A DNA stretch of 64,000 bases, taken from Halobacterium salinarum DSM 3754 (lineage in GTDB: Archaea > Halobacteriota > Halobacteria > Halobacteriales > Halobacteriaceae). The stretch lies in the NCBI RefSeq assembly GCF_008124605.1, contig NZ_VRYN01000004.1:1-64000 (forward strand). The letters run 5' to 3'. The translations under genes were made by a program, and so were the position numbers. Below are positions 1,905 through 62,893 of the stretch, piece by piece (the stretch's first letter is position 1; each line of letters opens with the position of its first letter). A model generated the notes under the pieces. It was not told the DNA's origin and searched no databases. It was given only the letters and a program-made list of their open reading frames with translations.

Positions 1905-1968
1905 CCGCCGAGGACGGCTCTCGTCCGGAGCCGATGGCTTGTAGGCCCCCCGCCGTCATGGGCCGAGT

Positions 1969-2319: not shown

Positions 2320-2392
2320 TCGCCGCACAGTCGCAGAGTGACGAACCACATTTGTAGGGGCCTCGCCTACGCGGAGCCAAGGTGACTTCCCT

Positions 2393-5086: not shown

Positions 5087-5141
5087 CGAGGCTGTCGATT
5101 TCGCCGAAGAGACTTTAGGTATGAACGAGATATGAATAGAC

Positions 5142-5408: not shown

Positions 5409-5410
5409 TT

Positions 5411-5764: not shown

Positions 5765-5780
5765 CTCCTCAATAGGATTC

Positions 5781-6074
5781 TCAGAGGCGACCCGCGTCGA
5801 CGTCGACCCCGGGCGGCGCGACGACGAGGAACTCCCGGAAGTGGACGAGCGACCCGCCGGCGTCCTTGACGTCGCCCGCGAACCCGGCGGCGAGTTCGTT
5901 CAGGTCGCCCTCGACCGCGAGGAAGAGGACGTTGCCGCGCTGAATCTCGTCGCGCCACTCCGAGTCGGGGGTGTCGCCGTCGAGCACGCCGAGGGTGACG
6001 CCGCCCTCGAAGTTCTCCGGGATGTCGATCTCGTCCTCGGCTCGCCGCAGGTCGAGGTTGAAGCCGTCGCTCAT
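5781..6074 (-). CDS. DUF5779 family protein
   Basis: A 97-residue acidic protein when started at MSDGFNLDL, the start chosen because homologues begin this way; an upstream ATG at 6101 adds nine unconserved residues. Recognisable features are VTLGVLDGDTPDSEW, a predicted strand NVLFLAVEGDLNEL and a C-terminal FLVVAPPGVDVDAGRL. The family is confined to haloarchaea and its function is unknown to me. It is convergent with the MazF-like gene. Confidence 0.8.
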   Translation of the reverse strand: MSDGFNLDLRRAEDEIDIPENFEGGVTLGVLDGDTPDSEWRDEIQRGNVLFLAVEGDLNELAAGFAGDVKDAGGSLVHFREFLVVAPPGVDVDAGRL

Positions 6075-6150
6075 GTCCGGGTGTGGGCGCCACGCCGGCA
6101 AAAACCTTCCCGCCCCCGCGTTTATGTCGTCCGCCGTCGTAGTTTCGGAT

Positions 6151-6297
6151 ATGCCACAGGTGACGCTCAGCGAGGAGACGGTCGAGCGCCTGGACTCGCT
6201 GCAGACAGAGGACGAGTCCTACGACGAGCTCGTCGAGGAGCTGTTGAACATCTACGAGGCCGAGGAGCTCACGATGTTCCGCTCCGGCGACGGCTGA
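6151..6297 (+). CDS. DUF7557-like small haloarchaeal protein
   Basis: A 48-residue protein starting MPQVTLSEETVERLDSL and ending ELTMFRSGDG, resembling the N-terminal part of VapB-type antitoxins (VxLxEExxxRLDxL, then YDELVEELL). No toxin gene follows. The family name is from memory. It is divergent from the DUF5779 gene with a 76-nt gap that should hold both promoters. Confidence 0.7.
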   Translation: MPQVTLSEETVERLDSLQTEDESYDELVEELLNIYEAEELTMFRSGDG

Positions 6298-6333
6298 CGA
6301 GGAGCACGCGAGAACGCGCTGTTCGCCGGTCGA

Positions 6334-6780
6334 CTACTCGCTGGCAGCGGCGCGCCGGACTTCCTCGAAGCGCCCCTCGTCCTCGAGGTGCGCCTGCAGT
6401 TGGTCGGCGTACGCCTGCGCGAGTTCCCGGGACTCGTCGGCGAGTTCCTCGTGGTCGTCGTCGCCGCCACCGATGCCGAGGGCGTCCTTGATGCCGCCGA
6501 CGACCCCGCTGCCGCCCGAGGACCCGCCACCGCCGCCCCCCATCGCGCCCATCTGCTGGTCGACGTTGTCCATCTCCGGGAGCACGTGTTCAAGGCTGGA
6601 GGTGTCCGCGACGATGCGGGCGGTCTCCGGGTCGTCCGCGTTCTCGAACGCGAACTCGACGGCGGTCATCACGAGCCCCCACTGGGGCCGTGACAGGCCA
6701 GAGGCCTGCACGCGGTCCGCGAACTGCTGGTCGACGCTCATGCGGGCGCCGACAATGAGGTCCTGCCAATCGTCAGTCAT
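6334..6780 (-). CDS. DUF5799 family protein
   Basis: A 148-residue haloarchaeal protein beginning MTDDWQDLIVGARMSVDQQF. It has a helical N-terminal half (SRPQWGLVMTAVEF), a glycine-rich linker with MGAMGGGGGGSSGG near the middle, and an acidic helical C-terminus. The start at 6780 is preferred over 6822 because conservation begins there. No enzymatic motif is visible and the role is unknown. Confidence 0.8.
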   Translation of the reverse strand: MTDDWQDLIVGARMSVDQQFADRVQASGLSRPQWGLVMTAVEFAFENADDPETARIVADTSSLEHVLPEMDNVDQQMGAMGGGGGGSSGGSGVVGGIKDALGIGGGDDDHEELADESRELAQAYADQLQAHLEDEGRFEEVRRAAASE

Positions 6781-6860
6781 GCGCACGGCTACGCGGGGCG
6801 CCGGCTTGTATGCTGCGACCAAAGAACAGGGACGTGTCGGCGTCGAGCGATTCGCGGCGT

Positions 6861-7259
6861 TCAGAAGGCGCCGGTCTCGCCGGAGATTTCGGCGTGGAGC
6901 TCCTCGCGGAGCGCGGCGTGGACGTGACAGATGCCCTCGGCTCGCTCGACGATGGCGTCGAACTCGTCGTCGTCGAGGTCCTCCTCCACGAGCAGGTGGA
7001 AGCGGATGGCGGAGATGTCGTCGTCGTCGTCGATGTCGCCCTCGACGTCGACGTCGATGCGGCCGAGGTCGTCGAAGCCCTCCTTCTGGCCGCCGACGCG
7101 GAACGCCGGGATGAAACAGGACGCGTAGTCCGCGAGCAGCGTCGCGTTCGGATTCGGGCCGTCCTCGTCCGTGGCGTCGATGGTCAGTTCGAAGTCCCCG
7201 ACGCGGGACCGCGTGGTGTAGCCTTCCTCGGACGTACTGGTAACTTCGATGGTGCTCAT
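6861..7259 (-). CDS. OsmC-family peroxiredoxin-like protein
   Basis: A 132-residue OsmC/Ohr-fold protein. Family members reduce organic hydroperoxides with two conserved cysteines, visible here as Cys48 (ADYASCFIPAFR) and a second in EGICHVHAAL. The N-terminal half is β-rich (YTTRSRVGDFELTIDA) and the centre holds an acidic Asp run typical of a salt-in cytoplasm. It is likely a stress protein, transcribed alone. Confidence 0.87.
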   Translation of the reverse strand: MSTIEVTSTSEEGYTTRSRVGDFELTIDATDEDGPNPNATLLADYASCFIPAFRVGGQKEGFDDLGRIDVDVEGDIDDDDDISAIRFHLLVEEDLDDDEFDAIVERAEGICHVHAALREELHAEISGETGAF

Positions 7260-7308
7260 TGCGTTCGGTTAGTTGCCCGCCTGCGGTGTAAGCGTTGTTC
7301 TTCCGATC

Positions 7309-7450
7309 ACCTACCTCGCCGTGAACGGCGAGGTTTGTCGGTTGACTCCCGGTCTGTCCACTATACTGTGGAAGGCGAGTAGTCGCCGTTTCCGTTCAGC
7401 GTCCCCGACTTCAGGGCGAGGTGATTGGTCGCCCGTCCAGAACCAGACTT
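7309..7450 (-). ncRNA. Probable ωRNA / right-end region of TnpB element 1
   Basis: TnpB proteins of IS200/IS605 elements use an ωRNA made from the 3' end of tnpB plus the element's right end. Just past the tnpB stop there is a perfect 8-bp stem with a TGAA loop at 7314-7333 (CCTCGCCG/CGGCGAGG on the plus strand). The guide would begin beyond about 7309. The limits given are estimates. Confidence 0.45.
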
Positions 7451-8578
7451 GAGCCGATTCTGGACATACCGATGTGCTATGTTTCGTGCCGCATTGTAGT
7501 CGCTGTGTAGCTCCTTGCCGCATTTCTGACAGGCAAACTCGTCGCCGTCGCGGTTGTCCTCGTGGGTGAAGCCACAATTGGTGTGACTGCACCGCTGGCT
7601 GGTGTAGGCCGGGTGGACTGACTCGACGGCGATTCCATGCGCACGAGCTTTGTATTCGGCTTGGCGTTTCAACTCGCGGAACGCCCATTGTTGGAACTTT
7701 GAGGCGCCAGAAATCCGGTCTCGTATCCGTTTCAGGTCCTCGAATACGATTACCGAACAGTCCTGTGAGGCGGCTTCTTTCACCAACCGCTTTGACGCCT
7801 GGTGCAAGAAGTCTTCAGACCAGTTGGCAAAAGTATCCCCGATGGACTGAATTGTAAGATGTGCGTTCCGTGTGCCTGTCTGTTGTAGGCGGTTGCGGCG
7901 ACGTTCGTACTCGCGACGTTTGTGGTTCAGCAAGTCCGCGTTCCCGATGAACGCGCCTGTGCTTGTGACTGCCAGATACCCGTCCACGTTCCGGTCCACG
8001 CCGAGAACTGTTCGGCTCTCGGCTCCTTCCGACGAATCTTCACGTTCCTGCTTGACGGAAACGTGTAGGTAGTAGGTATCTGACTGACAGTCGTAGCGGA
8101 GCTTCGCGCCCTGCTTTGTCCACTCGTCACCCTCCATGTATTCAGCTTGCAGAGAGTCGTCCGGGTAGACATACTCGGCGTGAACACGACCACTTCCGTA
8201 TGCGGCCAACGAACAGTAGCCGTCAAAGTACGTAATCGCGTTTGTGTTGTAGACGGTCGTATTCGAGGTGAACACCGGTTTCGAGGTTCGTTCACCTTCC
8301 TTCATCCGGTCTACGCACCCGGAGAGAGCGTCTGACGCATGGTTGACGGCGGCCACAGTCAAATCCGAGTGTAAACCGGTGTCTTCCCGTATGTCGTCGT
8401 AGACAAGTGGTTGAAGACGAGAGCGCGACGTTATCACGTAGCCACTGTCGTCACCCTGCCATCCCCGATCAGCAAACCTCTGGGAAGCGTCCCGAAACGT
8501 ATCCATTGTCCGTTTCAGGTCGTCTTGGCGCTCGTTGGGGACGGAGAGCTTAACGACAGCAGTACGCTGAAGCTCCAT
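7361..8578 (-). CDS. tnpB: TnpB RNA-guided nuclease of an IS1341-type element
   Basis: A 405-residue TnpB. The RuvC-like active site is present: Asp195 in VLGVDRNVDG, Glu280 in SVIVFEDL and Asp360 in SDYNAARNIA. The zinc ribbon has Cys330, Cys335, Cys350 and Cys353. All catalytic residues are kept, so it may be an active ωRNA-guided DNA nuclease. No tnpA transposase lies nearby, as is usual for IS1341-type elements. Upstream are a TATA-like stretch (8606-8617) and a 10-bp palindrome CCACATGTGG at 8586-8595. It differs clearly from the second TnpB at 14.1 kb. Confidence 0.93.
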   Translation of the reverse strand: MELQRTAVVKLSVPNERQDDLKRTMDTFRDASQRFADRGWQGDDSGYVITSRSRLQPLVYDDIREDTGLHSDLTVAAVNHASDALSGCVDRMKEGERTSKPVFTSNTTVYNTNAITYFDGYCSLAAYGSGRVHAEYVYPDDSLQAEYMEGDEWTKQGAKLRYDCQSDTYYLHVSVKQEREDSSEGAESRTVLGVDRNVDGYLAVTSTGAFIGNADLLNHKRREYERRRNRLQQTGTRNAHLTIQSIGDTFANWSEDFLHQASKRLVKEAASQDCSVIVFEDLKRIRDRISGASKFQQWAFRELKRQAEYKARAHGIAVESVHPAYTSQRCSHTNCGFTHEDNRDGDEFACQKCGKELHSDYNAARNIAHRYVQNRLKSGSGRATNHLALKSGTLNGNGDYSPSTV

Positions 8579-40867: not shown

Positions 40868-42121
40868 ATGGGGCCCGGTATTTTCCGCCGCGGCGCAGCG
40901 CTGTCCGTCGATCTCGTCGCGCTCTCGGCGGTGCTGTTCCACCCGTTCCCGCTGTCCGTCGTGGTCCTCGTCTACTGGGTAGACCTGCTCGGTGGGACGG
41001 CCCGCCGCTTCTGTCAGACGGTGGTCGCGGCTCCACGCGAGGCGTTCTCGCCGACCGGTCCGCCCGCGATGCGGCGGAACGGCGACCCGAACCCGCTGCG
41101 GTTCTTCACCCCCAAGCTCGGGACCCTCCGGCCGGTCACGTGGCTGCCGCCGATAGCGATTCACAACCTCAAGCCGGCCGTGGTCGGACTGTTCACCGCG
41201 GCCCCGCTGACCGCCGTCGCCGTCGGCGCGACGGTGGGGAGACTCGCCCCACCGTTCGCCCTCGGGTCGTGGCCGACGGCCGGACTGCTGACTGCCGGCG
41301 GCGTCGCTGTCCTCGCGAAACACGGGTCGGCGCTCCAGCAGTTCGTCCGCTCGGAGCGTCCGCCAGCCAGACGAATCCTCCCTGGCGTGCAGTGGCTCGG
41401 GCCGGTTCTGATGGCACTCCCTGTGGCCGCCATCGACACCGTCTATGCGGGGGCCGACTTCGACCCGTCAGCTGGATTCACGGCCGTGGCACTCCTGCTC
41501 GTCGTCGGGCGAATCACCCACGAGACGCGGCGGAGCGACCCGCCGACCGGAGCGGAGCCGTTCGAGATTTCGACGCCACCGGGGCGACCGACCGAGGTGT
41601 TCCACGTCGAGCAGCGCGCGGTCCGGACCGCGGGAGCGCTCGACGGGCTCGTCCCCCGGACCGAGTGGGACCTGCTCAACGTCGTCTCCCGACTCGCGGC
41701 CCTCTCTGCGGTGGCTGTCGTGGGGTTCTCGGTGGCCCTCGCCGTCGGACCGACAGTGGGGCTCGTCGCGACCGGCCTCGCGCTCGGCGTCCTCGCAGTG
41801 GGATTCGTGCTGACCGGTATCGCGCACTTCGAACTGGCGTTCGGTACGATGGAATACCGATTGTACGGCGACGCTCTAGTCGCGTACGACACGCGACTCG
41901 ACGCCGTCCAGTGGCACGTCCCGCTGCAGGCTATCCGGGCCGTTTCGATCGAACGGGACCGCTCGGAGCGGCCGCCTCGAACGGACGCAGCGACGGTCAC
42001 GCTCGACCGGACTGACCTGGACATCGACCAGTCGCCGTACGGCTTCTACCGTCAGTCTCTCCCGTACGTCCAGAACCCCGAACGCGTCGCCGAACGAATC
42101 CAGCAAGCGAAGGCGCGGTAG
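40868..42121 (+). CDS. DUF6498-like polytopic membrane protein
   Basis: A 417-residue integral membrane protein with about eight hydrophobic segments. The N-terminus (SVDLVALSAVLFHPFPLSV, then VYWVDLLGGTARR) is the DUF6498 pattern. A long soluble C-terminal part ends AERIQQAKAR. A TATA-like GATTTTAT lies at about 40834-40841. Function unknown. Confidence 0.75.
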   Translation: MGPGIFRRGAALSVDLVALSAVLFHPFPLSVVVLVYWVDLLGGTARRFCQTVVAAPREAFSPTGPPAMRRNGDPNPLRFFTPKLGTLRPVTWLPPIAIHNLKPAVVGLFTAAPLTAVAVGATVGRLAPPFALGSWPTAGLLTAGGVAVLAKHGSALQQFVRSERPPARRILPGVQWLGPVLMALPVAAIDTVYAGADFDPSAGFTAVALLLVVGRITHETRRSDPPTGAEPFEISTPPGRPTEVFHVEQRAVRTAGALDGLVPRTEWDLLNVVSRLAALSAVAVVGFSVALAVGPTVGLVATGLALGVLAVGFVLTGIAHFELAFGTMEYRLYGDALVAYDTRLDAVQWHVPLQAIRAVSIERDRSERPPRTDAATVTLDRTDLDIDQSPYGFYRQSLPYVQNPERVAERIQQAKAR

Positions 42122-42258
42122 TCGGTCGTAGCGACTACTCCGTCACGAATCGACGGCTTGCCGGCGGCAGCGCCCACCGTTACCCCGCCGACGGCGCGGT
42201 GGTTGCGCCCCACCAACTGCCGGGCACCGTGGGCGAAGCGCATACGATAGATGAGGAG

Positions 42259-42266
42259 TTTATTTA
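42259..42266 (+). promoter_or_regulatory. TATA box of the 42.3 kb gene
   Basis: TTTATTTA is centred about 32 nt before the ATG at 42295. Confidence 0.5.
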
Positions 42267-42294
42267 CCTGAGGGGTTGGGTCCTCCAAAGGTCG

Positions 42295-42783
42295 ATGTCC
42301 CGAACTGGCCCGGCATTCGTCGAGAACGAGGATGAACTGAACGCGGATCTCGAGCTCAAGGTGAACAACGGCGAGCTGTCGGAAGTCGCCGCGGAGGCGT
42401 TCTTGGACCTCTACGAGTTCGGTCACGAGATCGGTGACCGTGTCGACATCGGCGGCGCGAAAAACGCGAACTTCGAGGTCAAGGTCGACGTCCATCAGGG
42501 AACGTACCGTGGTGACCCCAGTGTCTTCACCGCGAACGTCGACGGAGAAGTACTGATCTGGCCCGCGATGATGCCGAAGAAAGAAGACGCGATGGACGAC
42601 GTTCCGTGGGAGGTAGCAGACTACAAAGCCTACCAACGAGCACTCTGCTCCCTGAGCGAGGTGCGGGACTCGAAAGCCATAGACTTCCAGGCGCTTGTCT
42701 CGAACGGCGAACTGGACGAGTTCAAAGCCGTGGTTCAGGACTTCGTCGATACCTGCCAGGAGCGAAGCGCAGACTCTGCCTGA
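42295..42783 (+). CDS. Soluble acidic protein of unknown function
   Basis: A 162-residue protein. The ATG at 42295 is chosen because a TATA box sits upstream at leaderless spacing; the frame is open further up but without promoter support. Predicted mixed α/β: ELKVNNGELSEVAAEAF, FEVKVDVHQGTYRGD, VLIWPAMMPKKEDAMDD. I do not recognise it. It opens the accessory stretch that runs to 49 kb. Confidence 0.65.
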   Translation: MSRTGPAFVENEDELNADLELKVNNGELSEVAAEAFLDLYEFGHEIGDRVDIGGAKNANFEVKVDVHQGTYRGDPSVFTANVDGEVLIWPAMMPKKEDAMDDVPWEVADYKAYQRALCSLSEVRDSKAIDFQALVSNGELDEFKAVVQDFVDTCQERSADSA

Positions 42784-42812
42784 GCCGGCTCGCTAACCGA
42801 TCATAATCTGCC

Positions 42813-42974
42813 GTGGTCGCCACCGTTCCCGCCAGCGTCCAGAATCAGGGCGGCTTCACGAACCTCGTCGGACACGGTGCCGGGTTCTTCACTGGGATAC
42901 TCGTGGCGCACGTCGGCTCGTACCGTGACTCTGGCCTTATACTAACGAAAGTGGCTGGGTTCCTTTGCTTCTGA
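42813..42974 (+). pseudogene. C-terminal remnant of a rhomboid-like membrane protease (copy 1)
   Basis: An open 53-codon fragment with no proper start. It reads QNQGGFTNLVGHGAGFFTG, then ILVAHVG, which resembles the last helix of rhomboid proteases with the catalytic His (GHxxGF pattern). It matches a second fragment at 44.05-44.15 kb in both DNA (about 45 nt at roughly 85 percent by eye) and protein. The rhomboid reading rests on a short motif. Confidence 0.45.
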
Positions 42975-42989
42975 CGAACAGCAACTCAC

Positions 42990-42997
42990 TTATTTTA
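42990..42997 (+). promoter_or_regulatory. TATA box of the 43.0 kb gene
   Basis: TTATTTTA is centred 25 nt before the ATG at 43019, consistent with a leaderless message. Confidence 0.5.
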
Positions 42998-43018
42998 GGT
43001 TTTTCTTCTGTGGTATGA

Positions 43019-43981
43019 ATGCCGCGTAAAGGGTCCGATGGGAACAGATATCTTGACCGAGAGAGTGGATCAGACGACAAATCGGAAGGCCGAGACGATG
43101 GAGACTTTCGATGGCAAAACGAGCTTGCTAAACAGGCTAAAGGGCTTCTCAAGTCGTTCTCTTCGAGGATAGACGGTTATTCGACTAGACTCACGTATCT
43201 TCTTTTGGGAGGCTTGATTTTCTTGGTAGCATCAGGACTGAATTCGCCAGTCATCGCAAGGGGTGGAATCACAGCCAGCGTTGTATACGTCTTCCACGAG
43301 ACACTGCACCTGAGAGTTCACGAACTTACCAGGATAATACGCGACCGTCTCGGGGAAGGCTGGACCTTAGCGCACGCTTTCTCACCGACGATCGGGATTG
43401 TCGCGATTGATTTATTCATCTCAGTTCCGATGTTTTCGTCCGGCGAGTACGTATGGCCGTATACCGTCGCGCTGGTAGCGCATTTTGCCGTTGTCCTGCT
43501 GATTTATCTTTGCATCAAATCGGCTAATAAAGAACTGTCCGGTATTCTCCAGCCCTGTCTTCGCAAACCGTATAGTTCAATACTTGCAGGCAGTACTATT
43601 GCAATTCTTGATCTGTACTTCGCGGTTAGAGTTTTCACCACTCCAGAATTGAAAGCTATTCAAGTTCTCTCCAGTACTAGCGAGGCCATTACACATACCG
43701 ACGGCTCTCTATTATTCATGTTTGCATGCATTGGTGTACTGTTTACCGTTCTTGTCCTACTGTTGTTGATACTTTATGGCATGCTCTATCTGGCCTTGGC
43801 TGTTCTCTTGGGAAGTATACCTATACTAATATATTTCCGACCTGATTTGGTGGTTGAGGGCCTCGAAACCGCGCCTCAGTCAGTCCGCATCTGGGCAGCG
43901 GTAAGTGGGATAATTTTCGCCATAATCTCGGTCACCCCTTCGGTTCTAAAGGGTAGACCATTTCTCAAGACATTCCGCTAG
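43019..43981 (+). CDS. AT-rich polytopic membrane protein, unknown
   Basis: A 320-residue protein. A charged cytoplasmic N-terminus (about 1-55) is followed by about seven hydrophobic helices (for example LTYLLLGGLIFLVASGL and LFTVLVLLLLILYGMLYLAL). A His-containing segment VVYVFHETLHLRVHELTR follows the second helix. GC content and codon use are clearly lower than in surrounding genes, and two matching rhomboid-like fragments flank it. I do not recognise the family. Confidence 0.7.
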   Translation: MPRKGSDGNRYLDRESGSDDKSEGRDDGDFRWQNELAKQAKGLLKSFSSRIDGYSTRLTYLLLGGLIFLVASGLNSPVIARGGITASVVYVFHETLHLRVHELTRIIRDRLGEGWTLAHAFSPTIGIVAIDLFISVPMFSSGEYVWPYTVALVAHFAVVLLIYLCIKSANKELSGILQPCLRKPYSSILAGSTIAILDLYFAVRVFTTPELKAIQVLSSTSEAITHTDGSLLFMFACIGVLFTVLVLLLLILYGMLYLALAVLLGSIPILIYFRPDLVVEGLETAPQSVRIWAAVSGIIFAIISVTPSVLKGRPFLKTFR

Positions 43982-44050
43982 TTACGGTTAGACTCCCAAA
44001 CGGGAAGTATAGATATGTCTGTTTGATTCTCCGGTAATGGGGGCCACGCT

Positions 44051-44149
44051 AATCACCAAAGCCAAGGCAGGTTCACGAACCTTGTCGGGCACGGTGCTGG
44101 GTTCTTCTCAGAGATGGTGATTCACTCGTGGCAGAATAGACCGCTGTAA
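44051..44149 (+). pseudogene. C-terminal remnant of a rhomboid-like membrane protease (copy 2)
   Basis: A 32-codon open fragment ending at TAA. It reads QSQGRFTNLVGHGAGFFSE, then MVIHSWQNRPL, and matches copy 1 at 42.8-43.0 kb around the GHGAGFF motif. No start or upstream domain is present, so it cannot be a functional protease. Confidence 0.45.
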
Positions 44150-44159
44150 GCTCCCGGTT

Positions 44160-44666
44160 TCAGAGACTAGCTCCTTCCTGCTCGATTCGCTGGAGGAGAC
44201 GCGACGTCGGTCGATCGTCGGCGACTCGCCACAGTCCCTGCGGCCAGAAGCTGTCTTCGTATTCGAGGATGCGGTTGACAGTCTCTGGTTCGAGATCGAT
44301 ACTCGTCCACTGGTCGATGTGGAAGACGTCGAGTGCCGGACCGCCATTCCAGAATTCGTCCCGCACCCACTCAGTGTGCCAGAGAGGCCCGCCAATTCGC
44401 CCAGCGGCAACGTACCGACTCTCACTGTTCCGATACACGAGCAAGGGATCGCCCGGCTCCATCTTCTCTAGGTTCCGTTCGTTGCGCTTCCACGGTGCGT
44501 CGGGGTGCTCAGGGTCCGTTCTGACTCCCCACACACGTGCATGGTCCGGGAAGCCGTCGGGTTTGTCTGGAGCAGGTGTGAGGTTTCGCGACTTCGCGAG
44601 GGTTTCGTTGAACGATTGCTCGTCAGCAGGGATCAGCCAGAGCTGAGGCACAAGATACAGATGCAC
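44160..44666 (-). CDS. EVE-domain protein
   Basis: A 168-residue protein that is essentially one EVE (PUA-like) domain. YLVPQLWLIPADEQSF opens it; ARVWGVRTDPEHPDAPW and EPGDPLLVYRNSESRYVAAG form the barrel; FWPQGLWRVADD ends it. EVE domains read modified bases in DNA or RNA and are often near restriction or defence genes. No restriction enzyme is visible nearby. Confidence 0.75.
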   Translation of the reverse strand: MHLYLVPQLWLIPADEQSFNETLAKSRNLTPAPDKPDGFPDHARVWGVRTDPEHPDAPWKRNERNLEKMEPGDPLLVYRNSESRYVAAGRIGGPLWHTEWVRDEFWNGGPALDVFHIDQWTSIDLEPETVNRILEYEDSFWPQGLWRVADDRPTSRLLQRIEQEGASL

Positions 44667-44718
44667 ACCTACAACTAAAATATCTAACCTATACCGAGGT
44701 CATATCCGCCATCAGCGT

Positions 44719-45129
44719 TCAGTCCTCGACTTCTGGCTGCAGATACCGTTTCCCTCGGCCACTTCCCTCGACGGCGATTAGCTCGTACTCCACGAGTCTG
44801 CCGAGATATTTCCGCCGAGTAGACCGCGCGACGGGGTCCTGCGACCGGTCCTCGTAGCGGGCGTGCAGGGTTCCGGCGTCCACGTCACCGGCTTCCTGAA
44901 TGATCTCGTAGAGCAGTCGCTTGTCGGTGTCCAGTTCCCGGACCCGATGCGTGCGCATCTCTGCGCGCGCTTCCTCCTCGACGTCCTCGACAATCGCCCG
45001 CGTGATCTGGTCGCAGTCGCCGGCAACTGCACGCTCGACCGCGCTCCGAAGCAGCGCAATCCCTGCTCGTGCGTCTCCCGCTGCCCGATCGGCCACGTAC
45101 GCCAGCGTCTCGTCGTCGATGCTGGACAT
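44719..45129 (-). pseudogene. Orc1/Cdc6 C-terminal remnant
   Basis: 136 codons matching only the end of archaeal replication initiators: the lid helices (LAYVADRAAGDARAGIALL, RSAVERA), the spacer EEARAEMRTHRVRELD and the winged helix ending LVEYELIAVEGSGRGKRY. The AAA+ ATPase core (about 250 residues) is missing. The fragment stops at about 45129, where an unrelated gene begins on the opposite strand. Orc1/Cdc6 paralogues are typical of haloarchaeal plasmids and integrated replicons. Confidence 0.8.
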
Positions 45130-45586
45130 CCGGCTGAAGGAACTGTGCGACTGGCGTATCAACGTCCTCGAGCGCGGGGTGGTGGTCGTCTACAAAACGA
45201 AAGTCGACGACCACTCGGGGGAAATGACGGAGAAGCGGATGCACCGGGTTCGGTGGGGGCCGCTGGACGACCACCCGGAACACCAGGTGCTCGAGGAGAA
45301 GAAGGTCGAGCACATGGAGAACTTCGCGGAGAACTCGTATCTCGCGGGCGATGACGACGAGGACGACGAGGCGGGCGTGACGTCGGTCGACGACATCTCA
45401 AAGCCGGTTCGGGACACGCTGATTCGGCGGTTCTGTCAGGTGGGGGTGAAACAGGCGAAGATCGGGGCGGTGTTCGACCTCCATCGGTCGACGATCTCGA
45501 CAATCAAAGGCGACGGGAGCACGGAGCTGGACGACGAGCACGCGTGGGACAACGACGGCGTCTCCGCAGGGGCCGACGATGACTAA
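45119..45586 (+). CDS. Plasmid/virus-like protein with C-terminal HTH
   Basis: A 155-residue protein. The first half is basic and β-rich (WRINVLERGVVVVYKTKVDD); the second half is acidic, with a helix-turn-helix VGVKQAKIGAVFDLHRSTIS and an Asp-rich tail. It begins at the junction with the Orc1/Cdc6 remnant, overlapping it by 11 bp, so its own N-terminus may also be truncated. I do not know a family name. Confidence 0.6.
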   Translation: MLDIRLKELCDWRINVLERGVVVVYKTKVDDHSGEMTEKRMHRVRWGPLDDHPEHQVLEEKKVEHMENFAENSYLAGDDDEDDEAGVTSVDDISKPVRDTLIRRFCQVGVKQAKIGAVFDLHRSTISTIKGDGSTELDDEHAWDNDGVSAGADDD

Positions 45587-45656
45587 CGAGGATGTCTTCG
45601 ATACGGTCTTGAGCGGTTTCGTCGTCGACAGCTCCCTCGATAGCGAGCGGTTCTGA
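45579..45656 (+). CDS. Possible 25-residue protein coupled to the HTH gene
   Basis: MTNEDVFDTVLSGFVVDSSL followed by DSERF; its ATG overlaps the upstream TAA (ATGACTAA). It may be a real tiny protein or the start of a truncated gene. Nothing further is recognisable up to 45.8 kb. Confidence 0.3.
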   Translation: MTNEDVFDTVLSGFVVDSSLDSERF

Positions 45657-45787
45657 GCACGGTGTTCGTGGACGTGGCCGGCTACCCGCTTGCGCTAGGA
45701 TGTCGCACTTCAGTAGGCTGTAGATCGTCATAAATTCGAGTGTCTGTGGGCTATTGTGTTATACAAGCTTCATTTTGAGCAGGAGAC

Positions 45788-45795
45788 AATTTTAA
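45788..45795 (+). promoter_or_regulatory. TATA-like box of the 45.8 kb gene
   Basis: AATTTTAA is centred about 31 nt before the ATG at 45823, supporting that start over the ATG at 45799. Confidence 0.45.
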
Positions 45796-45822
45796 GTCAT
45801 GTTGGAATTAAAAACTATCTGC

Positions 45823-46140
45823 ATGTCCGACTATAGGGCAGTTCTTGAACACCCGGAAACAGGCGACAGAGAAGTGCTGTACGATGGCGAACGAATTGAA
45901 CACGTTCCCTACGGAGACAGTTCACAAGACGACTTTTCCTGGGGATATACCGGTGCAGGTCCGAATAACGTAGCACAGTCTATCCTAGAGCATGCGATTG
46001 CTGAGACCGACGAATCATTCGATGTTAATGCCTCCAGCGTTCGAAGCGAGTTCGCTGGAGAATTCACTATACCGGTAGGCAAAAGCGAGGAGTGGACACT
46101 GAGCATGGAAGAGGTCAAGGAGTTCTTGAGAAATCACTGA
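45823..46140 (+). CDS. DUF6166-like small protein
   Basis: A 105-residue protein starting MSDYRAVLEHPETGDREVLY. FSWGYTGAGPNNVAQSIL is the characteristic core (a clock-regulated-gene-like pattern, DUF6166). The C-terminus is an acidic helix. It is frequent on plasmids and islands; function unknown. Confidence 0.7.
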   Translation: MSDYRAVLEHPETGDREVLYDGERIEHVPYGDSSQDDFSWGYTGAGPNNVAQSILEHAIAETDESFDVNASSVRSEFAGEFTIPVGKSEEWTLSMEEVKEFLRNH

Positions 46141-46444
46141 GACAGACTGTTACGTCCAAGTGAGAGAACCGTAGAAACGAGAAACACTCAGGGCGGTCAA
46201 CCATGTTCTCTCGACTAAGTTCCCCATTCTTGCGTTGACGCGTGGGGTTTCGCGTCCGAGAACGTGCTCGCCCGGATATGCACACGAACCCGTGTCCGCT
46301 CGTGTGCATATTCGCGCTCGGTCGTCGCCGCGCACCGGCGGAACTACCGTGGCCGTGATAGGAGGATGTGAACTCACCCCGATTTTCGGGTGTTCAGTGA
46401 GACAAATTCATTCGGTTATCCGGGGTCGTGTGTACGAGTCGAAT
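46141..46444. other. Intergenic region with a long inverted repeat
   Basis: No coding sequence is convincing here. The stretch contains a 12-bp perfect inverted repeat, described as its own feature at 46276-46311, and otherwise unremarkable sequence. Confidence 0.5.
46276..46311. promoter_or_regulatory. 12-bp perfect inverted repeat, possible operator
   Basis: ATATGCACACGA (46276-46287) and TCGTGTGCATAT (46300-46311) separated by 12 nt, about 135 nt upstream of the gene at 46445. Length and symmetry suit a dimeric repressor site or an RNA hairpin. Confidence 0.4.
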
Positions 46445-46702
46445 ATGCGAATCCGCACTGACGGCGAGTACGCACACCGCGAGGACACCATTGAGGCAGC
46501 TGCGAACCGCTTAGACTGCAACAAGACCCACGCCGTGCTGGTCTCCTGCGAGGTCGTCGGCGACGTCCTGAACGGCGTGGAGGACGCACTAGAGCATCCC
46601 GATCTCCCACCCCGTATCCGTCGGGAGTTGGCCGAGACAATTTCTACACGCCGAGTGGATGTCAAGGTTCCAGAGACGAAGGCGTCGGTGCGAGTCGACT
46701 GA
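46445..46702 (+). CDS. DUF7692-like small protein
   Basis: An 85-residue protein, MRIRTDGEYAHREDTIEAAA to VPETKASVRVD. The middle NRLDCNKTHAVLVSCEVVGD resembles a ribbon/helix DNA-binding unit. Such proteins recur in haloarchaeal plasmids and islands; the family name is from memory. Function unknown. Confidence 0.6.
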   Translation: MRIRTDGEYAHREDTIEAAANRLDCNKTHAVLVSCEVVGDVLNGVEDALEHPDLPPRIRRELAETISTRRVDVKVPETKASVRVD

Positions 46703-46819
46703 GTCAGTGTTCTACCCTTCGTAGTAGCTTCCGTAGAGTAGACCATGAGATGATCGACTCGCATCCCACTCTTGGTCGTAGATTTATACCCAAATCGCCT
46801 GTTACGAAACTTAGTAGAA

Positions 46820-47137
46820 ATGTCCAGATTGAATTCGGTTTCTTGGATTAAGCAAATTGATGGGGAGCTATTCCAACGGGAATACAATCGAGCAGCACGG
46901 GATGTGGTAAGTGGGGCAATTGGAGGGGCATTGTTCTACGCTGCGAACATAGCTGGTGGGATTTTGGTACACACCCTGCTTGCAGTGATTGGCTTTCTCA
47001 TGATACTTTTAGCTGCGCTATTCTACTACTTCCTGAATAGGGGTAGGGCGTATTCGTTGCGAATCGAGGAGTGGAGAAGTGACGGGGGGCAACCTGAGCG
47101 GAAGCGTAACGAGTGGCCGGAGGGAAGGGCATCCTAA
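46820..47137 (+). CDS. Two-helix membrane protein, AT-rich
   Basis: A 105-residue protein starting MSRLNSVSWIKQIDGELFQ. Two adjacent helices (GAIGGALFYAANIAGGILV and LLAVIGFLMILLAALFYYFL) are followed by a charged tail. A TATA-like TTTATA at 46783-46788 supports this start. No family recognised. Confidence 0.55.
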   Translation: MSRLNSVSWIKQIDGELFQREYNRAARDVVSGAIGGALFYAANIAGGILVHTLLAVIGFLMILLAALFYYFLNRGRAYSLRIEEWRSDGGQPERKRNEWPEGRAS

Positions 47138-47267
47138 ATTTACTGTTTTAAAGAGCGGATGAAGACGTGAATCTGGGTGTGTATGTTCTGTCCAGATTCC
47201 ATAGACAGTGGGAGCCTCTTCACCTCACCAACCCAAGAAATAAGTTATATCGCTGAAGCTTCAGGGC

Positions 47268-47558
47268 ATGGTTGACATCAGCTTCGACGCGGACATTGAT
47301 GTAGATCGTAGAGAGTTTTTGCAAGGCTTCGCTGAAGAGTACGAGAAAAAGGTCGAGCAGGGAGAAATCGACTGTCCAACTGACGGTTGTGATTCAGAAG
47401 TCTTTGATGCAGAAATCTGGCTAAGTAACCAGAACCATTTGGAGGGGGCTGCTATATGTAAGTCCTGCAATAAACGGATTGACCTGAATATCGATGATTC
47501 TCAAGTACATGACGCAGTAGGAGAAATCGAATCCGAATTGGAAGACGCATTTAAGTAA
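47268..47558 (+). CDS. Zinc-ribbon protein
   Basis: A 96-residue protein with a CPTDGCDSEVF knuckle and a second CKSCNKRI knuckle about 28 residues later, enough for one zinc. Both flanks are acidic helices. The ATG of the next gene overlaps its stop by one base. Likely a regulatory or adaptor protein of the island; unknown family. Confidence 0.6.
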   Translation: MVDISFDADIDVDRREFLQGFAEEYEKKVEQGEIDCPTDGCDSEVFDAEIWLSNQNHLEGAAICKSCNKRIDLNIDDSQVHDAVGEIESELEDAFK

Positions 47559-48022
47559 TGGTTGATACAGTTTCTATTGTTTTGAGCGCCGTTGTCTCTG
47601 TTGCCGTATCTCTGGCATCAGTCGAATATCGGATTCGTCGGTCTAGATCAATTCAGCAAGACGACGAAGTATCTGAATGGTATGCAGACGCTGCTTCATA
47701 CGCCAATAAAGTCCAGTCCACCTGGGAAACAAAATTCGAGCGGCCGTATGAGGAGAACCAATTCACATCATTTGATGAAGTTCAGAGAGAGATGAACCTA
47801 TTTCAGACTCAGCTCACCAACCACGCTGCAGAAGCAAATGGGGTGGAAGTGGACGAGGACGTGGTAGACGTAGTTGAAGAGACCGCAGAAGCGTGTCGTA
47901 GCGTATACGAGATTCGAACACACATGAACGTGCTACCCGAATTCGAGGAACAAGGACGCACGGCGAAGCAGCAAGCCGCAGAGTTAGAAGAGAAAGCTCT
48001 TGAGAAACTATCTGAGGCATAA
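47558..48022 (+). CDS. Membrane-anchored coiled-coil-like protein
   Basis: A 154-residue protein: one N-terminal helix (VSIVLSAVVSVAVSLASV), then a long helical soluble part (residues 35-154, EEKALEKL at the end). Co-translated with the zinc-ribbon gene (TAATG overlap). No family recognised; the pair could be a two-component small system. Confidence 0.55.
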   Translation: MVDTVSIVLSAVVSVAVSLASVEYRIRRSRSIQQDDEVSEWYADAASYANKVQSTWETKFERPYEENQFTSFDEVQREMNLFQTQLTNHAAEANGVEVDEDVVDVVEETAEACRSVYEIRTHMNVLPEFEEQGRTAKQQAAELEEKALEKLSEA

Positions 48023-48578
48023 CCTCGACTGGAAGCCAAAATCTTCGCGCTTCCGTCAGGGCTAGTTGCGGGTGTCGCTGCGGAACGGTGGGAAGTGTTT
48101 TGGAATTGTGGCCTTAGCCCAGGAGGCGTAGGAGTTCCTGACAATCTGCATTGCCATGTACTGAACACACGCAATCCAGTACCTCAGCGTCTCTCCAATC
48201 CGGTAGCGGCAGCTGGGGCTGATTGCGGTGAGGGGCGCGCGTTTGCGCGCCCCGCATTTGGCCTGCCCCCTTAGGGGCACTACCGTAGCGGTATGCGGTA
48301 ACTTGGGCGGACGCGCCAGCGGCCGAGAGTGCTGGATTCCGAACGCGAGCGGGCGTAAGTGGCTGCTTTCGAGCGTGTGAGCGCACGTATTATGCGCGAA
48401 AAACTGGAGTGTACAGAACAGGGCCAGTCCGTATACACCCGTGTGAAAGTAGAGAGTGCCGAGATTTTCCTCGTAATCAGCGGATCGAGGGCGTCGACGA
48501 ACGGTCGAGCCGCGAAAAACAGTCGAGCGTTACAGAGGCGTCGCTATTCGTCGGGGCGAGCCCGGTTGTGAGACGCCG
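48023..48578. other. Intergenic region with strong hairpins
   Basis: No gene is clear. A weak minus-strand candidate is 48114-48257 (47 residues, LPLPDWRDAEVLDCVCSVHG, then a Leu-rich end), whose tail looks like plasmid HTH proteins. A 9-bp GC hairpin (48232-48253) and a 5-bp hairpin GCCCC/GGGGC (48265-48278) lie side by side and could belong to an RNA or a terminator. Confidence 0.4.
48232..48253. terminator. 9-bp perfect GC hairpin
   Basis: GGGGCGCGC and GCGCGCCCC with a GTTT loop. There is no T-run, so it is not a textbook terminator; a structured RNA is equally possible. Confidence 0.3.
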
Positions 48579-57377: not shown

Positions 57378-59183
57378 TTACTGTCGCGTGTCCGGCCAGG
57401 GCGTGTCCGGGTCGCAGCCACCATCGCTGTCGATGACCGTCGCCAGCAGCTTCTGCTGGGCGCGCCGCAAGTGGTTGTGCAGCGTGGGGGCTGTCACGCC
57501 CATGTCGGCCGCGAGGTCCTCGGCGGTCGACTCCCGGGGCCACTCGAAGTAGCCGGCGTGAAACGCCGCCCGCAGGACCGCCGCCTGCTTGTCGGTGAGT
57601 GCGTCGTGCAGCGACGCCCCGTCGCGCTGCCCCGTCTCGTCGCCGCGGGCGCGCTCGCGCTTGGCCGCCAGCGACACGCCGGGGAACGCCGTGGCGAGGG
57701 CATCGAGGAGCGCACGCACGTCCGTCTCGAGGGCCACGCCGGCGACGACGCGCTCCCCACCGGGGCCGGCGCTGAGATCCCGGATCGTCCCACCGTGGCT
57801 GACGACCGCCATCGCGAGATCAGCGCCCGGGGCCACCCCGACCGCGAGCACCGCCTCGCCGCCCTGGTCGCGGACCACGCGCACGCTCACGACGCCGTCG
57901 TGGTCGTGCAGCCAGTCACGGACGCCGTCCGCGGGTGCGCCGGCGATCCGCACGAAGAACACGAGTGTCTGCCGGTCACCGGGTACGACACCCTCCAGGG
58001 AGAGGTCACACCCCTGTTCGACCGCGGCGCGCGCGAACACCGACCCCGCCCGGACCTCGAACGTGACTTCGAGGACGGTGTCCGTCAGTAGGCGGTGGCG
58101 CTGCTCGGCCAGCGCGACCGCCCGGCCCACGCGACGCCCCAGGTCCGTGATGAGGGTGCGCTCGCGCTGGCTGAACCGTGCTGTTGACGCCCCCACGGCC
58201 AGGACGCCGTGGGCCGCCTCGGGTCCGGCAACCGGAACGACACCCATCGCCTGAACGCCCGCCGCCGCGGCGTGCTCGCGCAGCGCCGCGACCGCCGGGG
58301 CAGCGCTCGCGGCCGGCGTGAACAGCCCTGTCCCGTCGTCGAGGGCGGCTTGCACGAGCGTCGCGCCCGGGGCGGCGCTCGCGTCGTCGCGGATCGCACG
58401 GTCGCCGCCCGCGGTCGCGGCAACCGTCACGTCGTCGCGGGTCGTCGGCCGCGCCAGCCACGCCATCTCGTAGGCGTCGCTGGCGGCCAAGGCCTCGCAG
58501 ACGGCCGTCTCGACGGCCCCCCGAGTGCTCGCATCCGACAGCGCGTCCCCCGCCGCGAGGACGGCGCGGTGCGCTTCGTCCACCCGGTCGTGTGCCCGCT
58601 GCTCGCTGCGGTCCGTCGGCGCTCGCGTCGTGCCGTCGAACGCCCGCGCGATGGCGTCCCGGTCGACGGCGTCCACCGCGGCGTACTGATCGAGGCTGGC
58701 GAGCCGCGACCAGCCGCCGACTGCCGCCACGACACGCGGGTCGACGCCCGCCCCGGTGAGCAGCCGCCTGGCGAAAAACGAGCGCAGGTCCTGGGCGGAG
58801 ACCCCGTCCAAGCCGGCCGTGTCGGTGCGCTCGGCGACCGCGTTGACCAGCGTTTGGACGCGGCGCGCCGACACGTCGACCAGCGGGTCGTCGTCGGCCA
58901 GGCCCGCGGCGTCGGCGCGCCGCCGGATGTCGCGCTCGACCGCGGGCGGGAGGTAGGCGTCGCGGTCGCTGCCGCCGTCGGCACCGGGCACGGCCAGGAA
59001 ATAGTGTGTGACACCGTCGTGGTCGTGGGGCGCGACGTCACACGGGCGGACGCGCGGTATCTCGGCGGACGTCAGCCCGACCTCGCCGGCCAGCCCCACC
59101 ACCACTGCCTCCCGGGGGGTTTCGGTTGCGCCGCGCAGCTCCCGGTAGTCGGCGTCGGTCACGCGACCGTCAGCCCCACGCAT
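57378..59183 (-). CDS. Bat-type regulator with a degenerate tyrosine-recombinase domain
   Basis: 601 residues in three parts. Residues 1-175 resemble the tyrosine recombinase catalytic domain: QDLRSFFARRLLTGAGVDPR, GGWSRLASLDQY. Arg134, Trp158 and Tyr167 are retained, but the box I Arg is Thr38 and the box II His is Ser135, so DNA cleavage is unlikely. Residues about 215-365 are a GAF-like sensor. The C-terminal half is the bacterio-opsin-activator domain with HTH DLAADMGVTAPTLHNHLRRA. It probably regulates acs and carbon metabolism (inference). Confidence 0.85.
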   Translation of the reverse strand: MRGADGRVTDADYRELRGATETPREAVVVGLAGEVGLTSAEIPRVRPCDVAPHDHDGVTHYFLAVPGADGGSDRDAYLPPAVERDIRRRADAAGLADDDPLVDVSARRVQTLVNAVAERTDTAGLDGVSAQDLRSFFARRLLTGAGVDPRVVAAVGGWSRLASLDQYAAVDAVDRDAIARAFDGTTRAPTDRSEQRAHDRVDEAHRAVLAAGDALSDASTRGAVETAVCEALAASDAYEMAWLARPTTRDDVTVAATAGGDRAIRDDASAAPGATLVQAALDDGTGLFTPAASAAPAVAALREHAAAAGVQAMGVVPVAGPEAAHGVLAVGASTARFSQRERTLITDLGRRVGRAVALAEQRHRLLTDTVLEVTFEVRAGSVFARAAVEQGCDLSLEGVVPGDRQTLVFFVRIAGAPADGVRDWLHDHDGVVSVRVVRDQGGEAVLAVGVAPGADLAMAVVSHGGTIRDLSAGPGGERVVAGVALETDVRALLDALATAFPGVSLAAKRERARGDETGQRDGASLHDALTDKQAAVLRAAFHAGYFEWPRESTAEDLAADMGVTAPTLHNHLRRAQQKLLATVIDSDGGCDPDTPWPDTRQ

Positions 59184-59714: not shown

Positions 59715-59993
59715 ATGCCCCGGCCGGAACTCGCGGAGTGGATGACACCGATGGACCGGGATATTTTGGAACTTCTCTGGAATGATGGCCGCCGAGAGCT
59801 GATCCTGAATCCGGGTACTATCGAAGCAAACACCGACTGGAAACGCCAGTCCATCAGACAGCACATCCTAAAGCTTCGAGAACACGGACTTGTCGAATAC
59901 TACGACGAAGACCGCGCGCTCTATCAGCTTTCTGAGCACGGCCGTATGTGGCTGGTGGGGAACCTTCCAACAGAAGAACTCGAAGAAAAATAG
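59715..59993 (+). CDS. Winged-helix DNA-binding protein (PhiH repressor-like)
   Basis: A 92-residue wHTH: MTPMDRDILELLWNDGRRE, IEANTDWKRQSIRQHILKLR as the recognition unit, EHGLVEYYDEDRALYQLSEHG as the wing. Such proteins are common next to haloarchaeal viruses and islands and are usually repressors. It lies 119 nt ahead of the SIR2-TPR gene on the same strand and may control it. An internal ATG at 59742 is an alternative start. Confidence 0.75.
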   Translation: MPRPELAEWMTPMDRDILELLWNDGRRELILNPGTIEANTDWKRQSIRQHILKLREHGLVEYYDEDRALYQLSEHGRMWLVGNLPTEELEEK

Positions 59994-60083: not shown

Positions 60084-60091
60084 TATTTATA
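60084..60091 (+). promoter_or_regulatory. TATA box of the SIR2-TPR gene
   Basis: TATTTATA is centred 25 nt before the ATG at 60113: a strong, own, leaderless promoter. The SIR2-TPR gene need not depend on the upstream wHTH transcript. Confidence 0.65.
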
Positions 60092-60112: not shown

Positions 60113-62893
60113 ATGACAGACTTCTCCAGCGACTCTGAAAAGGATATCCAGAGGTGCTCGGTCGATAAGTTAGTGAGAATTATCGACAGATCCCCTGACG
60201 GGTCCTATTCCTTCCTTGTCGGTGCTGGCGTTTCTAACCCTTCACCGGCAGATATCCCACTAGGTGGAGATATGGTTGAGGAGTTTAAACATGATATCTA
60301 TTCAGAGCAAGAGCGGGATTCGAGTCTGAACGAATGGGCGAATCAGTACGAGTCTGAACACAGGGAAGACGAATCGGAATACGGCTTCTGGTTCGCTGAG
60401 GCCTATCCCAACCTCACCGCTCGAAGAGAGAAAATCAGCCAGTTTGTCGAGGGAGCTGATCCGCCGCTGGGTCAAATGATTCTTGCCTCGATGCTTCAAC
60501 AAGGCGTGGTTTCACACGTATTCACTCCAAATTTTGACGACCTACTGGTGAACGCCTCAATTGACCTGCCGGGTCGAAGGCCACTATTTGTCGACCATGA
60601 CGCCCGTGCATCCCGAATTCAATTCCCGTCTGATCGTCCGGCGATCATGAAAGTCCATGGCGACTTTCTCCACTACACGAAAAACACCGATGAAGAAACT
60701 TCAAGTCTGAATGAGCCGATTGAACAGGCATTCAAGAAGTCACTCCAATCTTGGGGCTTGGTTGTACTCGGTTATGCAGGGTGGGATGAATCCATCATGG
60801 GGGTCTTGGAAGAAACCGAAGTATCTGAGAAAGGCCTATATTGGTGCAAACTGTCCGGCCACAACGTCAATGACCGTGTTGAGAAATTACTTGAGTCTAA
60901 AGATAATGCCTACCTTGTCGAAATTGAGGGATCAGAAGAGTTCTTTACCAAGATACTAAATAGATCAACTGAAGATTATCTTCCAAACCCAGAGGAGTTC
61001 GTCGAAAAGGCCAAGAACACTGCTGACAGAATCCGCGACCTACTGCGTAATCAAGAAAACGTTTCCAAACGCCATTTTCTGGAGGCGATGAGTGAGGACC
61101 GAGACTATTCAGGAGAAATACCGGATTCCGTTGACGAAACAGACGAACTTTCTGAAGTCGTTAACCTAATAGAAAAAGATAAAAATAAGTCTGCAATTGA
61201 AACACTCAATTCAATAATTGAGTCTACTGGTAATCCTCATTTTGCATATTATTATCGTGGATTGGCAAGGCAATCAATTGGTGAGGATGAAAAAGCAATT
61301 CGCGACTTCGATACTGCAATCGAACTTGATACTGAGTTTACTGACGCATATCGAGGTCGGGGCATTTCGAAAAGACGCATTGGTCGCCATAGTGAAGCCT
61401 TAGAAGATCTCAACGAGGCGATCAAGCTTGACTCCGAACACTCCGCGACCTACGTTGGCCGAGGGCGTGTGAAGCGGGAACTTGGAGAGTTGGAAGCGGC
61501 CATCGAAGATCTCAACGAGGCGATCAAGCTTGACCCCGAACACTCCGCGACCTACGTTAACCGGGGGATTCTAAAGCGGGAACTTGGTGAGTTGGAAGCG
61601 GCCATTGAAGACTACAATGAGGCGATCAATCTTGGCACCGAACACTTCGCGGCCTACTTTAACCGGGGGAATGCAAGAAAGGAGCTCGGAGAGTTAGAAG
61701 CGGCTATCGAAGACTACAATGAGGCGATCAAGCTTGACCCCGAAGACTCCGCAGCCTACTTTAACCGGGGGAATGCAAGAAAGGAGCTCGGAGAGTTAGA
61801 AGCGGCTATCGAAGACTACAATGAGGCGATCAAGCTTGACCCCGAAGACTCCGCAGCCTACTTTAACCGGGGGAGTATAAAGCGGGAACTTGGAGAGTTA
61901 GAAGCGGCCATCGAAGATCTCAACGAGGCGATCAAGCTTGACCCCGAACACTCCAGGGCCTACGTTAACCGGGGGAGTCTAAAGCAGGAACTTGGTGAGT
62001 TGGAAGCGGCCATCGAAGACTACAATGAGGCGATCAATCTCAGCACCGAACACTTCGCGGCCTACTTTAACCGGGGGAGTCTAAGGCAGGAACTTGGTGA
62101 GTTAGAAGCGGCTATCGAAGACTACAATGAGGCGATCAAGCTTGACCCCGAAGACTCCGCAGCCTACTTTAACCGGGGGAGTCTAAGGCAGGAACTTGGT
62201 GAGTTGGAAGCGGCCATCGAAGACTACAATGAGGCGATCAAGCTTGACCCCGAACACTCCAGGGCCTACGTTAACCGGGGGAGTCTAAAGTGGGAACTTG
62301 GAGAGTTAGAAGCGGCCATCGAAGACTACAATGAGGCGATCAAGCTTGACCCCGAAGACTTCGCGGCCTACGTTAACCGGGGGAGTCTAAAGCGGGAACT
62401 TGGTGAGTTGGAAGCGGCCATCGAAGATCTCAACGAGGCGATCAAGCTTGACCCCGAAGACCCCCGTCCGTTCATCAATCGCGGCGCCCTAATGCTAAAA
62501 GATGGATCCGTTGAGGAGGCAATCAATGACTTTGATCAAGCTATTCGGTTTGACTCGCAGGATGTATCTGCTCTAAGTGGTAGAGCAGAGGCTAAAATTG
62601 TGTGTGGAGAGTTTGAAGACGCGTATCAAGACGCTCGTAACGCAAAAGAGGCAAGTAAAACTAAAAAAGATGAGTTTTCTAGCCTGATGTTAGTGCTTAT
62701 ATCAAAAGTCTGTCTAGGGGATGAAACAGATTCTCTTGAAGAAGAGTATCAGTCAATCGGAAAAAGTGAATTTACGATAACCTGGGACTACTCCATCCTC
62801 AATAATTGGTTGGATTCAACTAATCTTTCGCGGAGTGATGAGCGCCACATTGAGGACATTATTGATTTCCACAAAGAGCACACTGAGGGGTAA
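60113..62893 (+). CDS. SIR2-domain / TPR-repeat protein, candidate antiviral NADase
   Basis: 926 residues. The N-terminal SIR2_2 domain (about 15-290) has the NAD loop VGAGVS (36-41), HVFTPNFDDLL with Asn140 and Asp142, catalytic His182 in MKVHGDF and GLVVLGYAGWDE. Residues about 300-376 are a helical linker. Fourteen 34-residue TPR units fill 377-850, of which units 3-12 are nearly identical. A helical tail ends the protein. Stand-alone SIR2 proteins with long helical C-termini (DSR1/DSR2, ThsA) deplete NAD+ on phage infection; the same role is inferred here. GC is lower than in core genes. Confidence 0.88.
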   Translation: MTDFSSDSEKDIQRCSVDKLVRIIDRSPDGSYSFLVGAGVSNPSPADIPLGGDMVEEFKHDIYSEQERDSSLNEWANQYESEHREDESEYGFWFAEAYPNLTARREKISQFVEGADPPLGQMILASMLQQGVVSHVFTPNFDDLLVNASIDLPGRRPLFVDHDARASRIQFPSDRPAIMKVHGDFLHYTKNTDEETSSLNEPIEQAFKKSLQSWGLVVLGYAGWDESIMGVLEETEVSEKGLYWCKLSGHNVNDRVEKLLESKDNAYLVEIEGSEEFFTKILNRSTEDYLPNPEEFVEKAKNTADRIRDLLRNQENVSKRHFLEAMSEDRDYSGEIPDSVDETDELSEVVNLIEKDKNKSAIETLNSIIESTGNPHFAYYYRGLARQSIGEDEKAIRDFDTAIELDTEFTDAYRGRGISKRRIGRHSEALEDLNEAIKLDSEHSATYVGRGRVKRELGELEAAIEDLNEAIKLDPEHSATYVNRGILKRELGELEAAIEDYNEAINLGTEHFAAYFNRGNARKELGELEAAIEDYNEAIKLDPEDSAAYFNRGNARKELGELEAAIEDYNEAIKLDPEDSAAYFNRGSIKRELGELEAAIEDLNEAIKLDPEHSRAYVNRGSLKQELGELEAAIEDYNEAINLSTEHFAAYFNRGSLRQELGELEAAIEDYNEAIKLDPEDSAAYFNRGSLRQELGELEAAIEDYNEAIKLDPEHSRAYVNRGSLKWELGELEAAIEDYNEAIKLDPEDFAAYVNRGSLKRELGELEAAIEDLNEAIKLDPEDPRPFINRGALMLKDGSVEEAINDFDQAIRFDSQDVSALSGRAEAKIVCGEFEDAYQDARNAKEASKTKKDEFSSLMLVLISKVCLGDETDSLEEEYQSIGKSEFTITWDYSILNNWLDSTNLSRSDERHIEDIIDFHKEHTEG
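61445..62464 (+). repeat. Ten tandem 102-bp repeats encoding TPR units
   Basis: Units of exactly 102 bp (34 codons) run from residue 445 to 784. Units 5 (61649-61750) and 6 (61751-61852) differ by one silent base. Alternation between AIEDLNEA and AIEDYNEA and between KLDPE and NLGTE/NLSTE shows blocks copied as groups. DNA-level identity points to recent unequal recombination. Confidence 0.95.

Follow-up and report, generated by a model that had tools for sequence, protein, structure and literature searches.

The question raised by this locus is what a protein that joins a SIR2 domain to a long array of tetratricopeptide repeats (TPRs) does in a haloarchaeon, and whether it serves the cell or the element that may have brought it there. 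The gene lies in the window, by which we mean the whole stretch of DNA analyzed (64,000 nucleotides, positions 1 to 64,000 of contig NZ_VRYN01000004.1 of Halobacterium salinarum DSM 3754). A sequence-only reading had proposed an open reading frame with an N-terminal SIR2_2 domain and TPRs, and had interpreted it as an NAD+-depleting defense system. The frame is present, and Pfam agrees with the architecture, with SIR2_2 matched at residues 135–236 (E 8.5e-7) and TPR families matched with E-values down to 2.9e-105. The features of the locus are collected in Table 1.

Table 1. Features of the SIR2-TPR locus, with positions in the window
Feature	Position	Strand	Evidence
PhiH-repressor-like winged-helix (wHTH) protein, 92 aa, 119 bp 5' of the SIR2-TPR gene	59715..59993	+	tblastn: phiH repR, BJ1, HRPV-9 PhiH1-like repressor
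TATA-box-like TTTATA	60086-60091	+	22-27 bp 5' of ATG; read from sequence
SIR2-TPR protein, 926 aa	60113..62893	+	ORF with ATG start; Pfam/PADLOC; AlphaFold2 model
SIR2_2 NADase-type domain, about aa 12-290	60146..60982	+	model, fold search, residues
Long linker helix aa 293-328, low-confidence hinge 332-341, first helical pair 338-371	60989..61225	+	AlphaFold2 model
TPR array, 14 units of 34 aa, about aa 375-851	61238..62665	+	HMM count; predicted helices
Recently amplified array core, 102-bp unit, 10.4 copies, 89% matches	61403..62458	+	TRF
Conserved C-terminal cap, ~90 aa, about aa 834-926	62612..62890	+	BLASTP to relatives, E 3e-15 to 9e-4; alignment

The gene has a GC content of 0.48–0.49 against 0.65–0.71 in the flanks, and a GC3 of 0.52, where the IMPDH gene has 0.89; it lies in a patch of 48–54% GC, which agrees with the AT-richer patch noted by the sequence-only reading. 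The same reading had assigned the gene its own leaderless promoter. The position of the TTTATA element and the lack of an obvious Shine-Dalgarno sequence ahead of the ATG on inspection are compatible with this and suggest a putative leaderless start. The phage-repressor-like wHTH protein noted just upstream was found to match the repressors of phiH, BJ1 virus, and the pleolipovirus HRPV-9. An Rfam scan of 58–64 kb returned nothing credible, and no DNA-level match was found in E. coli genomes. A second AT-rich stretch (51–59% GC) lies at about 42000–48500 of the window and may be another island.

The active site of the SIR2 domain is intact. The GAGxS loop at 37–41 (G37-A38-G39-x-S41), N140, D142, H162, and H182-G183-D184 are all present, in agreement with the NAD loop, Asn140/Asp142, and His182 named earlier, and G37, N140, D142, and H182 are invariant in an alignment of 35 members. 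Residues 1–330 contain only two cysteines and the domain therefore has no zinc ribbon; with its SIR2_2 fold, GAGxS loop, and catalytic Asn and His, it is of the immune type. The AlphaFold2 model, for which the input alignment was built without rows from phage or plasmid records, has a mean pLDDT of 86.7 for the whole protein (35-row alignment) and a pTM of 0.82 for the SIR2 domain. A fold search with the full-length model returned mostly TPR proteins, O-GlcNAc transferase for example, and was uninformative; it was redone with the SIR2 domain alone. A structure-based search of this kind had been proposed as a check of the defense reading. The top 50 PDB matches were all immune-type SIR2s, with no deacylase among them. 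SPARSA (8y80) ranked first (E 2.1e-15), followed by ThsA, Kongming KomC, DSR2, Avs5, SIR2-HerA, and FAM118B; nothing in a viral structure library matched at E ≤ 0.001. The earlier comparison with DSR1, DSR2, and ThsA has to be revised, as SPARSA is closer by PADLOC (SPARSA SIR2, E 5e-47), by PDB sequence search, where it also came first, and by fold. In the alignment to GsSir2 of SPARSA, N140 corresponds to N142, H162 to H163, and H182 to H186. The NADase activity of GsSir2 is abolished by N142A and by H186A, and the contact of H186 with H163 has been linked to activation (PMC10781750). We infer that the SIR2 domain of the window protein is likewise an NADase.

The count of 14 TPR units given by the sequence-only reading was reproduced exactly by the TPR HMM in a 34-residue register. 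The repeat signal found by TRF in the array core is far beyond chance, and similar tandem arrays occur in the Halonotius (105-bp unit, 11.2 copies) and Halovenus (102-bp unit, 3.7 copies) proteins; each has a unit sequence of its own, so the array was amplified separately in the three lineages. The array ranges across the clade from two or three recognizable units to 14 or more. Among the ten near-identical units of the window protein, most of the variation is held by helix A and helix B is nearly invariant. The ligand groove of a TPR is usually taken to be lined by positions 2, 5, 9, 12, 13, 33, and 34. These positions are more variable than the others (mean entropy 0.88 versus 0.29 elsewhere; permutation p 0.009, an optimistic value since the repeat units are not independent). 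The array shows no sign of positive selection overall (pN/pS 0.48; 0.83 at groove positions).

The array is followed by a cap that the earlier reading had missed, the conservation of which reaches the Thermoplasmata protein (E 3e-15). By BLASTP from the window protein, the cap is common to L039, L041, L044, and L032 (E about 1e-10 or better) and weakly to the viral homologue from Halfgib1 (E 9e-4), with no match to it in L036, L042, L043, and L046. In the archaeal clade, the SIR2 domain is constant and the cap is retained in about half of the members, the Thermoplasmata protein among them. We tentatively suggest, as a possibility to which we give rather low odds, that these proteins make up an archaeal and proviral family of immune receptors in which an elastic TPR sensor separates an NADase and a cap that both stay fixed, so that tandem duplication in each lineage would lengthen or vary the array and recognition of viral proteins could be quickly retuned through repeat number and helix-A residues.

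The sequence-only reading had held that homologues in core, syntenic positions would speak against a defense role. The opposite was found. Among 392 Halobacteria genomes, a match of any strength occurs in 20 and a strong homologue (E < 1e-40) in seven, one of them the window genome; these seven belong to several genera, and the gene is at unrelated sites. The 12 further genomes from this genus have no match at all. Ten archaeal proteins, including those of the window and of a Thermoplasmata MAG, form one clade in the tree (support 100/99). The neighborhoods of the archaeal copies differ from one another. The Natronococcus copy adjoins TmtA (Tiamat) and is the only archaeal homologue seen near a known defense gene. 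The Thermoplasmata copy adjoins a serine-recombinase-like ORF, the copies in G184 and G309 appear to stand alone in housekeeping surroundings, and there is no defense island of the classic kind around the window gene. Bacterial relatives are found beside or near integrases in two Vibrio phages, one PM2-like and one P2-like, and in 44 IMG/VR viral contigs.

The weaker haloarchaeal matches (~27%) appear to be another family; the one that was scanned, on contig C27 of the same genome, is a full-length PDC-S65 (E 7.5e-188). This second SIR2 gene of the genome (L007 1498-3243, G000 contig C27) adjoins an HTH gene. Plasmids of Halobacterium salinarum encode the same protein, there with an integrase-like gene and a DUF4365 gene as neighbors. 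A two-gene pair was also observed in bacteria, in which a SIR2 gene (~560 aa) is followed by one for a ~335-aa protein (L088 1763-4452, L106 7959-10717, L109 4152-6903); in L088 this partner has a glutathione-synthetase-like ATP-grasp domain.

A more specific link to viruses is provided by Halfgib1, a Haloferax pleolipovirus that was recovered after induction of its provirus, the integration site of which is tRNA-Arg (PMC7911831). Its genome has a wHTH gene, then 139 bp, then a SIR2-TPR gene, which is the gene order of the window (119 bp). Homology between the two SIR2-TPR proteins covers the SIR2 domain and extends into the cap, at 31–37% identity. The window wHTH protein shares 32% identity with the repressor that Halfgib1 has in the equivalent position and 53% with a Haloferax pleolipoprovirus repressor (L225). 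Halfgib1 additionally encodes a cytosine methylase and a REase_II-like protein. The slot behind phiH-like repressors is variable, holding the HicBA toxin-antitoxin in SNJ2 and other genes in HRPV-9 and three Haloferax proviruses, and is read here, from the gene content of a small sample, as a probable cargo site. Window-type wHTH proteins did not prove to be generally linked to SIR2: of 195 genomes, 50 have close wHTHs, and these lie in differing gene contexts, so the pairing of repressor and SIR2-TPR rests on two cases, the window and Halfgib1. The contents recorded for these pleolipovirus slots comprise SIR2-TPR, HicBA, MCM-like ORFs, and further ORFs (L025 1659-7287; L228 2081-2923; L224-L226).

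Synteny next to the SIR2-TPR gene is broken. The BAT gene to the left lies between two acs-like genes in six relatives, and the right-hand acs copy is absent there in the window genome. The distance from the BAT gene to the DHH gene next to tRNA-Lys is ~30 kb in G009 and G010 and ~5.7 kb in the window, with the SIR2 gene in between. The tRNA-Lys(CTT) gene is 1.7 kb to the right of the SIR2 gene with its 3' end towards the island, and in the Halobacterium relative G008 this tRNA is occupied by an element of ~6.5 kb that contains an integrase-like ORF and at which the tRNA 3' end is duplicated (L201 about 1800-8340), which marks the tRNA as a site used by integrating elements. The window locus showed none of the hallmarks of an intact pleolipoprovirus (integrase, Rep, spike, att repeats), no other viral gene, and neither a copy of the tRNA-Lys 3' end nor any other 14-bp direct repeat; as no att copy was found, descent of the window gene from a provirus remains putative. 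The BAT/HTH_10 regulator at 57378-59183 has a weak phage-integrase-like N-terminal match (E 1e-4, under the Pfam cut-off).

Taken together, the gene product is probably a stand-alone NADase that acts by abortive infection and senses through its TPRs, and mobile elements are its probable carriers. The protein would be folded and inactive at rest, and the TPR superhelix and C-terminal cap would bind a virus-derived protein or a host protein altered by the virus. Binding or oligomerization would open the SIR2 active site, and the domain would then convert NAD+ to ADP-ribose and nicotinamide, by which cell and virus would be halted. Pleolipovirus-like elements may carry the gene as cargo together with a phiH-type repressor; its product would then keep competing viruses out and protect the host as well. 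The NAD+-depleting defense role claimed by the sequence-only reading is thus well supported, at the level of sequences and models, by fold, active site, mobile context, sporadic distribution, and viral relatives; what does not stand is the view of it as simply a host gene. Who benefits is indeed the point on which the strongest competitor turns, and we give that competitor a little less than an even chance: the gene would serve a provirus in superinfection exclusion, or as cargo or addiction gene, with host protection secondary and the adjacent repressor tying expression to lysogeny. The closest genome with known biology is that of an active virus, HicBA occupies the variable slot in SNJ2, and the SIR2 gene adjoins an integrase in the two Vibrio phages; however, other archaeal copies have no neighboring provirus, and integrase and att site are missing from the window locus. 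The biochemistry expected is the same, and only the beneficiary differs. Since an active pleolipovirus carries the best-understood homologue as cargo, and does so in the same layout of repressor and SIR2-TPR, virus-virus exclusion appears at least as likely as host defense.

Other explanations concern what the parts of the protein do. The array might be an oligomerization ruler or filament scaffold with no part in viral sensing, as ThsA and Avs5 are activated by filament assembly (PMC12700824) and helix B is almost invariant between units; the concentration of variation in helix A and the excess at the supposed groove positions make this unlikely in our judgment. Less likely still is a role as a regulator and not as a suicide NADase, in which the TPR scaffold would recruit a cellular protein for ADP-ribosylation or deacylation by the SIR2 domain. 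TPRs are generic protein scaffolds, and some conflict sirtuins were proposed to ADP-ribosylate macromolecules (PMC9503650), but the missing zinc ribbon, the lack of any deacylase in the top 50 fold matches, and the sporadic, mobile distribution all weigh against such a role. That the gene is foreign and now degenerate or silent, with no present function, seems very improbable: an intact frame of 926 residues, repeats amplified in frame, retention of every active-site residue, and promoter-like sequence outweigh the foreign-looking, AT-rich patch and the broken synteny next to it.

The sequence-only reading had called the system undescribed. This holds in part only, since such proteins were already noted: the Halfgib1 sirtuin is mentioned (PMC9503650) and the FAM118 tree includes SIR2_2-TPR fusions (PMC12700824), in both cases without a function. 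Neither the term SIR2-TPR nor a test of SIR2-type NAD depletion as a haloarchaeal defense was found in the literature searched. The parts are of known kinds; what is new in detail is their combination, the archaeal and proviral setting, and the elasticity of the array. The family is small and single-gene, and a virus already obtained from a laboratory haloarchaeon carries one member, so that Haloferax lends itself to tests of activity, trigger, and virus-virus exclusion. An elastic array between constant ends would be a natural experiment on how repeat sensors acquire new specificities.

Among known systems, Avs5, ThsA, Kongming KomC, SIR2-HerA, and human FAM118B are alike in SIR2 fold class and differ in their sensors (STAND, SLOG, partner proteins). 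The window protein is not an Avs5 (SIR2-STAND), with no NTPase among the best 25 Pfam families listed and TPR helices in that part of the model. The PADLOC candidate PDC-S65 has a distantly similar SIR2 domain (~27% identity), a different C-terminal half (~580 aa), and a separate branch in the tree; its model of 592 positions is matched only at positions 30–289, by residues 29–284 (E 3e-24), and we do not assign the protein to it. DSR2 and DSR1 are likewise single-gene SIR2 proteins with a long helical C-terminal sensor and are alike in fold class, with ~14–19% identity between DSR2 and the window protein in fold alignments. In DSR2, however, the SIR2 domain is followed by HTH, helix-bundle, HEAT, and C-terminal domains (PMC11263360) where the window protein has 14 TPR units, and membership was rejected. 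SPARSA has the nearest SIR2 domain (GsSir2, PDB 8jkz/8y80), with the catalytic Asn-His pair and the loop histidine in common. It consists of Sir2-APAZ and a short pAgo, whereas the window protein has a TPR array and cap in place of APAZ and no partner gene. PADLOC SPARSA matches stop near residue 300 (one weaker model reaches 359), and PIWI (PF02171) had no match across the whole genome, with a positive control genome, so that membership was rejected here too. The counterpart in Halfgib1, HfxHg1_085, is a protein of 555 residues annotated as a 'tetratricopeptide repeat protein', in which the TPRs are few or degenerate as against 14 in the window protein, and it is carried by an intact virus.
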